A DNA stretch of 64,000 nt from an uncultured Granulosicoccaceae bacterium (lineage in GTDB: Bacteria > Pseudomonadota > Gammaproteobacteria > Granulosicoccales > Granulosicoccaceae), in the NCBI GenBank assembly GCA_937922675.1, contig CALAJN010000002.1:62001-126000 (forward strand), given 5' to 3'. Below, in pieces: positions 58,088-61,471 of this stretch. Both the position numbers and the translations under genes were made by a program. Position 1 is the stretch's first letter. Each line of letters begins with the position of its first letter. The notes under the pieces were generated by a model. It did no database searches. It worked only from the letters and a program-made list of their open reading frames with translations, and was not told the DNA's origin.

Positions 58088-58861
58088 TTACCCTGGCTCG
58101 TTTTGCGTGATCGTCACACCGTCTGGAAAATGCCCGCTTTTGTACCAGACGAGGGTGCCAGGGGTGCCAGCCCATGACTGCCAGGCAGGTACCGGGTTTC
58201 GGATCCAGCTGCCGGCGGGGTAGGTGCCGCTGGAGTCGTGAAGTGCTCCGCTCAGCACATAGAGTTCCTCTCCGATCGGATCCAGATTGGGGTGAAAGGC
58301 AGCGGTTGTGTGCCAGCGCACCAGCATGACAGTGCTGGTCCCGTGCCCATGCAGTGGCAGGACCTCCACACCGCCAACCGGCCCCTCGAACCAGGCTGCG
58401 TCGTCGTTGGTATCCATGCGGCGAACCTCGGTATCGGTGGACTCGATCTGGCCGATGGCAACGGTGACCAGCGACTCCTCGAGCAGCGTGATGGCGCGGA
58501 TCTCTCCCGGGTCCCGTGGTAGTCGCAGATAGGTGCCTGGGCCAAGTCTTTCATCGCCGAGAAGAACGCTTCCGCGTTGCACAAACATCTCGATTCCATG
58601 GTCAGCACCGATTACCGCGCCGGTCTGCAGTGGCTGCAGTACGGCGACGAGTCGGCCATCCTTACGGCTCAGCTCGAGCAGTCGGATCTCCAGCTCGTGG
58701 TTGGTGTCCTGCAGCCACTCAGGCTCGCCAGGCAGGCAGACCTCGCGCAGGCGGTGATCAGCTGCGACATCGGCGGACGCTGCAAGCAGCCAGGTCGGCA
58801 ATGCTGTCGAGGAGGCAGGCGGCTGTGCCTTGCGCTTGTCTGTGGCGGGTCTGGGTGACAC
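58088..58861 (-). CDS. ChrR-like double cupin protein
   Basis: A 257-residue protein with two cupin-like repeats (about 45-125 and 155-245). The second repeat carries the ChrR-cupin type sequence: HPNLDPIGEELYVLSGALHD followed by GTYPAGSWIRNPVPAWQSW, with histidine and glutamate metal ligands. The N-terminal anti-sigma zinc domain of true ChrR is missing, so it is not expected to bind a sigma factor. Function is otherwise unknown; metal-dependent sensing or a stand-alone enzyme are possible. GTG start at 58861, divergent from the LexA-type gene (134 bp). Confidence 0.85.
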   Translation of the reverse strand: MSPRPATDKRKAQPPASSTALPTWLLAASADVAADHRLREVCLPGEPEWLQDTNHELEIRLLELSRKDGRLVAVLQPLQTGAVIGADHGIEMFVQRGSVLLGDERLGPGTYLRLPRDPGEIRAITLLEESLVTVAIGQIESTDTEVRRMDTNDDAAWFEGPVGGVEVLPLHGHGTSTVMLVRWHTTAAFHPNLDPIGEELYVLSGALHDSSGTYPAGSWIRNPVPAWQSWAGTPGTLVWYKSGHFPDGVTITQNEPG

Positions 58862-58940
58862 GTGAGTGAGCCTGAACGGTCTGCTGGGACTTGTCTGTGG
58901 AGTTCCGTTCTGGAGGTAGCGGCGAGTGCACGCAAAGCCG

Positions 58941-58969
58941 TTGAAAATTCTCCAAACGTTCTCTATGAT
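58941..58969 (+). promoter_or_regulatory. Sigma70 promoter of the LexA-type gene
   Basis: TTGAAA (58941-58946) and TATGAT (58964-58969) are separated by exactly 17 bp, each one base off consensus. Transcription would begin near 58976, leaving a leader of about 20 bases with GGAG (58985-58988) 7 bases before the ATG. Confidence 0.8.
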
Positions 58970-58991
58970 CGAAAGAGAACTTTTGGAGAAT
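58947..58991. promoter_or_regulatory. Composite operator of the LexA-type gene
   Basis: Left arm ATTCTCCAAACGTTCTCT (58947-58964) and right arm (58974-58991) are inverted copies differing at one of 18 positions, with a 9-bp centre. Each arm holds two TTCTC (or GAGAA) half-sites 11 bp apart: 58948, 58959, 58975 and 58986. The left arm fills the -35/-10 spacer; the right covers the predicted start and ribosome site. This fits tight autorepression by the product. Confidence 0.85.
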
Positions 58992-58995
58992 CTTT

Positions 58996-59796
58996 ATGAG
59001 TGAAGGCCCACCGCTGACGCATCTGGAAGCCCGTGTACTGGCAGCCATCGAGCGCCACATCCGGGCCGAAGGTGTCGCGCCAACCATCGCTGAACTGGCA
59101 TCGGACTTACGTCTGAAGTCCAAGGGCACCGTGCATCGCTACGTGCAGTCACTCATTGGCAAAGGCCGGTTGGAGCGTCACGGCAACGGGTGGCGCGGGT
59201 TGCGCATCGTGGGCCTGGATGTCCCCGGGTATCGCTCCAACGTCCATCCCTTCCCGAGTCGCCGCAAATCAGATCAGGTGGCCAATGAACCGACGGCTGA
59301 GCAGCGCAGCATGGTGGTCACGCCGCTGGCATTGCCGGCCAGCGTGGAGTCAGACGTGTCCGAACCTGTTGCATTGCCAGCAGAAGGCAGACACGCAGGA
59401 GGTTCGAGTGCCGAGCAGGGCATGCGCATACCGCTGCTGGGACGAATTGCCGCCGGCATGCCCATCGAAGCCATAGAAGATCAGCACTATCTTGATCTGG
59501 CTGCTTTTTTCATCGGCCCGGATCGCTACGCCCTGCGAGTCACTGGGGATTCGATGATGGATGTCGGCATACTCGATGGCGATACGGTGATCCTGCGCAA
59601 ACAGGAGACGGCAAACACTGGAGACATCGTTGTGGCGCTGATCGATGGTCAGGAAGCAACGCTGAAACGCCTCGGCTCCGTACGCGACGGCAAAGTGGAA
59701 CTCATCCCCGAGAACGCTGCGATGGAGACGATGCTCTACCACCTTGATCGCGTCAGTTTTCAGGGCGTGTTGGTCGGGCAGCTGCGGAATTATTGA
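58996..59796 (+). CDS. lexA: LexA-type repressor (S24 family) with long linker
   Basis: SOS-type repressor with self-cleavage domain. The winged-helix DNA-binding part (about 7-72) has TIAELASDLRLKSKGTVHRY; a linker of about 70 residues, much longer than in E. coli, follows; the S24 domain (about 142-262) has the cleavage site Ala153-Gly154 (RIAAGMPIEA), nucleophile Ser186 (TGDSMMDVG) and Lys224 (ATLKRLG) at spacings like E. coli. Length 266 against 202. ATG at 58996 with GGAG 7 bases upstream. The operator half-sites overlap its own promoter. SRAP and nth are next. Whether it is the housekeeping LexA or a second, specialised one is open. Confidence 0.9.
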   Translation: MSEGPPLTHLEARVLAAIERHIRAEGVAPTIAELASDLRLKSKGTVHRYVQSLIGKGRLERHGNGWRGLRIVGLDVPGYRSNVHPFPSRRKSDQVANEPTAEQRSMVVTPLALPASVESDVSEPVALPAEGRHAGGSSAEQGMRIPLLGRIAAGMPIEAIEDQHYLDLAAFFIGPDRYALRVTGDSMMDVGILDGDTVILRKQETANTGDIVVALIDGQEATLKRLGSVRDGKVELIPENAAMETMLYHLDRVSFQGVLVGQLRNY

Positions 59797-59886
59797 ACCC
59801 GGTGCCGGGCGAGCCGACTGATGCTGCAATCGCTACACTCGAGCTTACAGTACCCGACTACTATCTACCTGCAACTGCAAGCCTCC

Positions 59887-60096
59887 ATGTCTGACACCGA
59901 TCTCATTCATGCCCTCAAAGTGGCCTTTACCTACTTGCCACAGGCCATGGACGTCAATGAGTACGACTTTCCCGGACGCGTAGACAAAACACTTGCCGAC
60001 ATCGAATGCGTGCGTGAGGCTTTGCTGGCGCAAGGTATCGACCCGGACGAGGTAGCAGGGGAGTTTGACCTCGGCGCGCCCGAGTCGAGCCTGTAG
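59887..60096 (+). CDS. Hypothetical 69-residue acidic protein
   Basis: Not recognised. The 69 residues are acidic and mostly helical in character (ALKVAFTYLPQAMDVNEYDF, later DKTLADIECVREALLAQGID and PDEVAGEFDLG), no signal peptide or membrane segment. ATG at 59887; the frame is open to another ATG at 59821 giving 91 residues, neither with a strong ribosome site. It lies 90 bp downstream of the LexA-type gene, between it and the convergent SRAP gene, so co-expression with the repressor is possible. Confidence 0.6.
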   Translation: MSDTDLIHALKVAFTYLPQAMDVNEYDFPGRVDKTLADIECVREALLAQGIDPDEVAGEFDLGAPESSL

Positions 60097-60114: not shown

Positions 60115-60804
60115 TCAAAACAAGGGCAGGTTGCGAGGCGGTGCGAGGCACTCCGGACCTTCGTTTCTGGCGCTGTTGACGTAGTCTCCCACACGCTCCA
60201 CAGCGAGCTCGATCTTCGAGGGCTCTTGTATGGCGTGTTCGCAAAGATCATCCTCACTCATCCATCGCCGCGCCGCGGTCGGTGTGAGCATGACTGGCAT
60301 GCGATCGTGGATGTCGGTGAAGTGTGAGTCCGCAGCACGGGTCAACAAGCACAAGGCCGGCAGTGGTTGCTCACTACCGGCCGGCGGGGCCCAGATACCG
60401 GCGACGAGCAGGCCCGGTCCGGCGCATGGGCGGATGTAGTAGGCGTGGCGTTGTCTGGCGCTGCGCTGCCATTCGTAAAATCCGTTGATCGGAAGGATGC
60501 ATCGTCTGGTGCGGGCGTGCTCGCGAAAGCTTGGCTTGTCGAACACGGATTCTGAACGTGCGTTGATCAAGGGCGGCTGCGTTCCCTTCCAGGGCGCCTT
60601 GATTCCCCAGTGCATTCTGACGATGGACCTGTCGCGGGTCACCGCGTCGAGCGAGCGAGTCGGCGCGACATTCCATCGCGGTATGCGTGCTGTGGGCGCG
60701 GGCTCGGCTACGTCCGGGGCCTGAGGCCTGGTCGTGTGCTCGATAATCGACGCGATCAACTCGTCGAGCCCCTCCAGGTCGCTGACATTTACTCGTCCGC
60801 ACAT
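60115..60804 (-). CDS. SOS response-associated peptidase (SRAP; YedK/HMCES family)
   Basis: Protects abasic sites in single-stranded DNA by forming a thiazolidine cross-link through the N-terminal cysteine. The 229 residues start at MCGRVNVSDL, making Cys2 the N-terminal residue after methionine removal, the reason for choosing this ATG; then WNVAPTRSLDAV, PLINARSESVFDKPSF, CILPINGFYEW (active glutamate) and FTDIHDRMPVML (histidine) follow. It is divergent from nth by 22 bp; both process damaged bases. Location near a LexA-type gene agrees with the family's SOS association. Confidence 0.94.
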   Translation of the reverse strand: MCGRVNVSDLEGLDELIASIIEHTTRPQAPDVAEPAPTARIPRWNVAPTRSLDAVTRDRSIVRMHWGIKAPWKGTQPPLINARSESVFDKPSFREHARTRRCILPINGFYEWQRSARQRHAYYIRPCAGPGLLVAGIWAPPAGSEQPLPALCLLTRAADSHFTDIHDRMPVMLTPTAARRWMSEDDLCEHAIQEPSKIELAVERVGDYVNSARNEGPECLAPPRNLPLF

Positions 60805-60826
60805 GCGGTGATGATAGTTTGAACCG

Positions 60827-61471
60827 ATGAACGCTGACAAACGCCGAGAGATTTTTCGACGACTCGCTGAGGAGAGACCTCATCCTGTGCCGGAGCTCGA
60901 CTATACGAGCCCCTTTGAACTGCTGGTCGCTGTGATCCTGTCGGCTCAGGCAACTGATATCAGCGTCAATCTGGCCACCGGCAAGCTGTATCCGGTGGCA
61001 AACACGCCTGAGACCATGCTTGATCTTGGAGTTGATGGCGTGATCGAGCACATCCGCACCATCGGTCTGTTCAACAACAAGGCGAAAAACGTGATCGAGA
61101 CCTGTCGCATTCTGCTGGAGCAACATGACGGTCAGGTGCCGGCAGATCGCAAGTCGCTGGAGGCCTTGCCCGGTGTGGGCAGAAAAACCGCCAACGTGGT
61201 GCTTAACATTGCATTTGGCCAGCCCACGCTGGCTGTGGATACACATGTATTTCGTGTCTCCAATCGCACAGGCCTGGTCAGGGGCAAGACGGTGGATGAG
61301 GTGGAGAAAAAACTGTTGCGTCATGTGCCCAAGGACTATCTGATGGACGCGCATCACTGGTTGATTCTGCATGGGCGCTACACTTGTGTGGCGCGCAAGC
61401 CCAGATGTCCGAGCTGCGTTATTCGTGATGTGTGCGAATTTCGTGACAAGACACGTGACGTCACTGCTTGA
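60827..61471 (+). CDS. nth: Endonuclease III (DNA glycosylase/AP lyase)
   Basis: Base-excision repair enzyme removing oxidised pyrimidines. The 214 residues show the helix-hairpin-helix and catalytic lysine in LEALPGVGRKTANVVLNIAF, catalytic aspartate in AVDTHVFRVSNR and the C-terminal 4Fe-4S cluster CVARKPRCPSCVIRDVC (CX6CX2CX5C). Length is near E. coli's 211. ATG at 60827, divergent from the SRAP gene by 22 bp, implying a shared promoter region. Confidence 0.96.
   Translation: MNADKRREIFRRLAEERPHPVPELDYTSPFELLVAVILSAQATDISVNLATGKLYPVANTPETMLDLGVDGVIEHIRTIGLFNNKAKNVIETCRILLEQHDGQVPADRKSLEALPGVGRKTANVVLNIAFGQPTLAVDTHVFRVSNRTGLVRGKTVDEVEKKLLRHVPKDYLMDAHHWLILHGRYTCVARKPRCPSCVIRDVCEFRDKTRDVTA

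Follow-up and report, generated by a model that had tools for sequence, protein, structure and literature searches.

A second LexA in a Granulosicoccus-group gammaproteobacterium and the paired, inverted direct-repeat boxes at its promoter

A marine gammaproteobacterium of the Granulosicoccus group carries a normal LexA and a second one, LexA2, whose gene is preceded by two inverted boxes of the type known from alphaproteobacterial LexA. We propose, with a probability of roughly 0.8, that LexA2 is an autorepressor that binds these two boxes and is cleaved upon DNA damage, forming a nearly self-contained circuit that leaves the main SOS genes to the canonical LexA1. All coordinates refer to the whole 64-kb stretch of DNA that was analysed, here called the window.

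The LexA2 protein and its operator

The locus comprises the following features:
58088..58861, minus strand: ChrR-type cupin gene, divergent; conserved neighbour and possible second LexA2 target
58941..58946, plus strand: -35 hexamer TTGAAA, conserved in relatives
58947..58991, no strand assigned: whole inverted repeat, with 18-bp arms (58947-58964 and 58974-58991), a 9-nt gap and 1 mismatch
58947..58963, plus strand: putative left LexA2 box ATTCTC-CAAAC-GTTCTC, of GTTC-N7-GTTC type, filling the promoter spacer exactly
58964..58969, plus strand: -10 hexamer TATGAT (TATNNT conserved in relatives)
58975..58991, minus strand: putative right LexA2 box, reverse complement ATTCTC-CAAAA-GTTCTC, covering the ribosome-binding site and the transcription start expected near 58976
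58985..58989, plus strand: Shine-Dalgarno GGAGA, overlapping the right box at its outer half-site and conserved in the alignment
58996..59796, plus strand: lexA2, encoding a LexA paralogue of 266 aa with an N-terminal winged HTH and an S24 domain
59821..60096, plus strand: small conserved ORF downstream of lexA2, start more likely at 59887

A preliminary description of this DNA had called the gene behind the operator LexA-type, and the profile searches agree. The lexA2 product scored 146.6 bits against TIGR00498 (cut-off 110.95), at the level of a LexA equivalog, had Pfam matches to LexA_DNA_bind and Peptidase_S24 above the curated cut-offs and matched solved LexA structures; by these sequence measures, lexA2 encodes a genuine LexA. 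The recognition helix of its winged HTH is SKGTVHRYVQSL, its linker is about 65 aa longer than that of E. coli LexA, and its S24 domain retains the cleavage pair Ala153-Gly154 and the Ser/Lys dyad (Ser186, Lys224).

Gene order around lexA2 is conserved, with chromosomal synteny, and nearly all loci compared retain the cupin gene and also the small ORF beside lexA2. The small ORF, without a match in Pfam or NCBIfam, may be co-transcribed with lexA2. At 60115-61471 of the window, nth and a gene for an SRAP (SOS response associated peptidase) are divergently arranged and overlap at their 5' ends; both are frequent conserved neighbours of lexA2, and there is no LexA2 box there.

The inverted repeat with 18-bp arms and a single mismatch had been noted before, and it proved to be the only one of such quality in the window; 60 dinucleotide shuffles gave 4 inverted-repeat counts in total, nested matches within one palindrome being counted separately. 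Elsewhere in the window the arm sequence does not recur even when up to 3 mismatches are allowed (0.09 expected), and only the two arms reach box scores of at least 9 bits. As previously described, the TTCTC half-sites of an arm have a spacing of 11 bp, and each arm read one way is a direct repeat, (A/G)TTCTC-N5-GTTCTC. A GTTC-N7-GTTC direct repeat is the reported alphaproteobacterial LexA box (PMC8565304, PMC3323433, PMC9578287), and both lexA2 boxes are of this type, each departing from it at one position in the window (ATTC-N7-GTTC). The dyad therefore consists of two direct-repeat boxes facing each other. The E. coli-type SOS operator, CTGT-N8-ACAG, is absent from 58941-58996. The preliminary description was right in matching the operator to neither the E. 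coli box nor that of Gram-positive bacteria, but the arms belong to a type already known from alphaproteobacteria.

The near-consensus promoter claimed for lexA2 was recovered as the single promoter-like site in the region (TTGAAA-17-TATGAT, 58941-58969; 10/12, shuffle mean 0.0). The operator had been said to overlap this promoter fully; the left arm does lie in the spacer, but the right arm lies over the start-site and ribosome-binding region.

Conservation of the boxes and the recognition unit

In the Granulosicoccaceae, lexA2 promoters carry both boxes in 17 loci and the right box only, in perfect form, in 5; at the remaining family loci the left box is weaker or degenerate, or the contig is cut. 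The right-hand box is an exact GTTC-N7-GTTC in 9 family loci, and at least 5 half-site positions are invariant across 32 arms. The left box in relatives adjoins a TTGNNN -35 element, with a TATNNT -10 element in nearly all and a spacing of exactly 17 bp. Within the genus, 3-4 bp separate the end of the right box from the start codon, and the outer half-site GGAGAA doubles as the Shine-Dalgarno sequence. Across 14 aligned upstream regions, the main conserved block was formed by promoter, boxes and ribosome-binding site. A similar box pair is found at lexA of other gammaproteobacteria (L098, L099, L152 and L162), and both boxes are present at 21 loci when other gammaproteobacterial families are included. 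Counting against these boxes as the LexA2 operator is a subgroup (L052-L055) with an intact recognition helix and only a weak left box.

Two side observations concern these promoters. A short TAGCGGC-like element (58916-58924 in the window), about 20 bp 5' of the lexA2 -35 hexamer, is conserved in many relatives. The L162 protein (G082:C67), the only LexA of a small gammaproteobacterial genome, keeps the helix and the GTTCTC box pair and lacks the Ala-Gly pair and the catalytic Ser (SDN; DDGM replaces GDSM); it is probably non-cleavable.

The recognition unit is probably the single direct-repeat box and not the dyad, because five relatives keep only one such box. The four half-sites could instead form one 45-bp palindromic operator recognised in its entirety, perhaps by a LexA tetramer, a reading favoured by the near-perfect 18-bp arms at the window's lexA2 and by the 21 loci with both boxes. 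We consider it rather unlikely: the box that stands without a partner in the five relatives is perfect, the gap between boxes varies among loci (9-11 or 16-18 bp), and paired boxes within a promoter match at 86% of half-site positions versus 58% of spacer positions, so the half-sites are what is kept. Cooperative binding by two LexA2 dimers, a possibility raised in the preliminary description, is plausible given the four half-sites. The position of the long inverted repeat immediately before the start codon could also point to a function in RNA, as a 5' UTR hairpin, attenuator or terminator. The left arm, however, lies between -35 and -10 and hence would not be transcribed from the TTGAAA-17-TATGAT promoter, the predicted 5' end folds no better than shuffles (z 0.96), no terminator-like site was found in the region, and pairing is not kept at spacer positions in relatives; we rejected an RNA hairpin role as highly improbable.

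Kinship with alphaproteobacterial LexA

As a control, GTTC-N7-GTTC or its complement was found upstream in 33/33 alphaproteobacterial lexA loci with a placeable start. The LexA2 helix SKGTVHRYVQSL fits the alphaproteobacterial SKSGIHRLITAL, unlike SPTAADDHLRAL of LexA1; its pattern, S-[KR]-G-x-V-H-R-Y, resembles the alphaproteobacterial S-K-S-G-[IV]-H-R-L, and median identity over the helix is 46% to alphaproteobacterial and 15% to canonical gammaproteobacterial LexA. Outside the recognition helix, the N-terminal domain has a median identity of 30% to alphaproteobacterial LexA, no higher than to canonical gammaproteobacterial LexA.

We placed LexA2 in a tree of 57 LexA sequences (21 of them alphaproteobacterial) in which long branches are present. 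LexA2 of the Granulosicoccaceae formed one group (97/92) inside a gammaproteobacterial group (94/87), canonical gammaproteobacterial LexA stood apart (98/97), and the node joining the alphaproteobacteria with the LexA2 group was moderate (93/79). These relationships fit an old sister lineage of alphaproteobacterial LexA better than a recent transfer. A recent acquisition of LexA2 and its operator from an alphaproteobacterium would agree with the best full-length matches outside the family, which belong to alphaproteobacteria or to a different class within the phylum (38-44% identity), and lateral acquisition of an alphaproteobacterial lexA is recorded for Acidobacterium, going by a title cited in PMC3323433. 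Such an acquisition nevertheless appears unlikely, as the 21 alphaproteobacterial sequences are monophyletic (100/99) with LexA2 outside, LexA2 clusters with other gammaproteobacterial LexA and its chromosomal synteny is conserved. Plasmid and phage collections held no close LexA2 relative, all matches being below 60% identity.

At many alphaproteobacterial lexA promoters (for example, L121, L124, L137-L139 and L144), the direct repeat is accompanied by a third, inverted GTTC/GAAC half-site close by, so additional half-sites in inverted orientation may be a wider phenomenon. On a Methylobacter plasmid (L148), lexA and umuDC-like genes are divergent, and the region that separates them contains GTTCTCTTTTTGTTCTA; this plasmid LexA is a possible mobile relative of the lexA2 circuit.

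LexA1, the LexA2 regulon and the proposed circuit

The genome of the window has one other LexA, LexA1, which is of canonical gammaproteobacterial type and adjoins an imuA-like gene (labelled by eye; profile matches to RecA/SulA were sub-threshold only). A canonical LexA also occurs in 19/19 of the family genomes with LexA2 that were compared. The genome's own recA carries CTGTAACTGTTTACAG, a classical CTGT-N8-ACAG, and no GTTCTC-type box; imuB carries the classical CTGTAAATAAATACAG, and a gene resembling a DNA-repair radical SAM protein (by eye) carries CTGTTTTTATGAACAG. Judged by recA, LexA2 does not appear to be the SOS master regulator of this organism. With CTGT-N8-ACAG at recA and imuB and a separate canonical LexA1, the lexA2 site does not serve as the organism's master SOS box. 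The preliminary description had named, as a finding that would count against it, classical boxes at the real SOS genes combined with no role for this site; the boxes are there at recA and imuB, whereas the conservation of the site contradicts the absence of a role. In gammaproteobacterial families with only a LexA2-type LexA (G039, G043 and G082), recA has neither box, so an SOS takeover is not visible there. Separate contigs carry the lexA1-imuA pair and imuB (L001/L111 (G000:C8) and L112 (G000:C4)), and a transposase-like ORF (by eye) is found directly upstream of lexA1.

In the whole-genome profile ranking, the two lexA2 arms came out best and the third match fell in a parB-like coding sequence. 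The profile search covered nine genomes (the genome of the window and eight congeners) and scored the best 150 candidates per genome, so degenerate LexA2 targets may be missed. Exact matches to TTCTC-N5-GTTCTC in 27 genomes of the genus were mostly lexA2 sites; among the others, those inspected were nearly all coding, and no second target was shared. Because neither pattern nor profile gave a second convincing site in its own genome and eight congeners, LexA2 appears to be a cleavable autorepressor that controls little or nothing beyond its own gene. That weaker operators give it a broader regulon, which might take in the divergently oriented cupin gene and the small ORF on the other side, is conceivable though the less favoured reading. 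Those two genes are conserved neighbours in nearly all loci, and the second LexA proteins of Pseudomonas putida and Xanthomonas axonopodis have regulons (PMC9578287); against this, the nine genomes gave chance-level matches only, nearly all of those inspected being within coding sequence, and the lexA2-cupin intergenic region has no promoter-like site on its minus strand.

In the circuit that we propose, LexA2 would repress its own transcription through the two inverted GTTCTC-N5-GTTCTC boxes, occluding RNA polymerase between -35 and -10 from the left box and blocking the start region from the right box. DNA damage would give rise to RecA filaments, LexA2 would cleave itself between Ala153 and Gly154, and repression would be released. 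DNA binding, cleavage, induction and cooperativity of LexA2 are here inferred from its sequence. The main SOS genes would stay under canonical LexA1 with CTGT-N8-ACAG, which would make LexA2 an independent, nearly self-contained damage-responsive circuit. More tentatively, LexA2 may be a self-only switch, its sole operator at its own promoter, kept family-wide beside canonical SOS, perhaps as a stage in regulon replacement or as a damage timer based on the cleaved protein.

The second LexA of P. putida and X. axonopodis has operator sequences other than those of LexA2. Like LexA2, these proteins represent a case of two LexA with separate binding sequences in one gammaproteobacterium (PMC9578287), but they have regulons, whereas for LexA2 only self-regulation is apparent. 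Alphaproteobacterial LexA (for example, of Caulobacter crescentus) shares with LexA2 a lexA promoter with a direct-repeat box, the 11-bp spacing of its half-sites, the recognition helix SK..[VI]HR.[VI]..L and the long linker. LexA2 differs in that its host, a gammaproteobacterium, also has a canonical LexA, its half-site is extended to GTTCTC, its two full boxes are inverted, and no direct-repeat box was found at the host's recA. An autoregulated LexA with the operator GGTT-N10-AACC (PMC8565304) likewise does not act on recA, but has another operator and a distant host. Francisella FddR (PMC13148647) is also a small damage-responsive S24 autorepressor circuit; it is of phage-repressor origin and has the palindrome GTG-N11-CAC, whereas LexA2 has a LexA DNA-binding domain.

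A second LexA with diverged boxes, alphaproteobacterial-type direct repeats and an autoregulated LexA that ignores recA are thus already known. New, as far as we searched, are the presence of direct-repeat boxes in a LexA lineage of gammaproteobacteria, their doubled, inverted arrangement that fits promoter spacer and ribosome-binding site, and the apparent self-only regulon; we found no paper on LexA in Granulosicoccus in the open-access literature. As lexA2 shows, direct-repeat LexA boxes also occur outside the alphaproteobacteria. The natural series of two boxes, one box and degenerate boxes may help to show how a LexA dimer with two-fold symmetry recognises a direct repeat, and what becomes of LexA operators once the gene has been duplicated. 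A cell with two LexA circuits that seem orthogonal, one of them apparently self-only, would allow a direct test of the idea that LexA evolves by regulon replacement.
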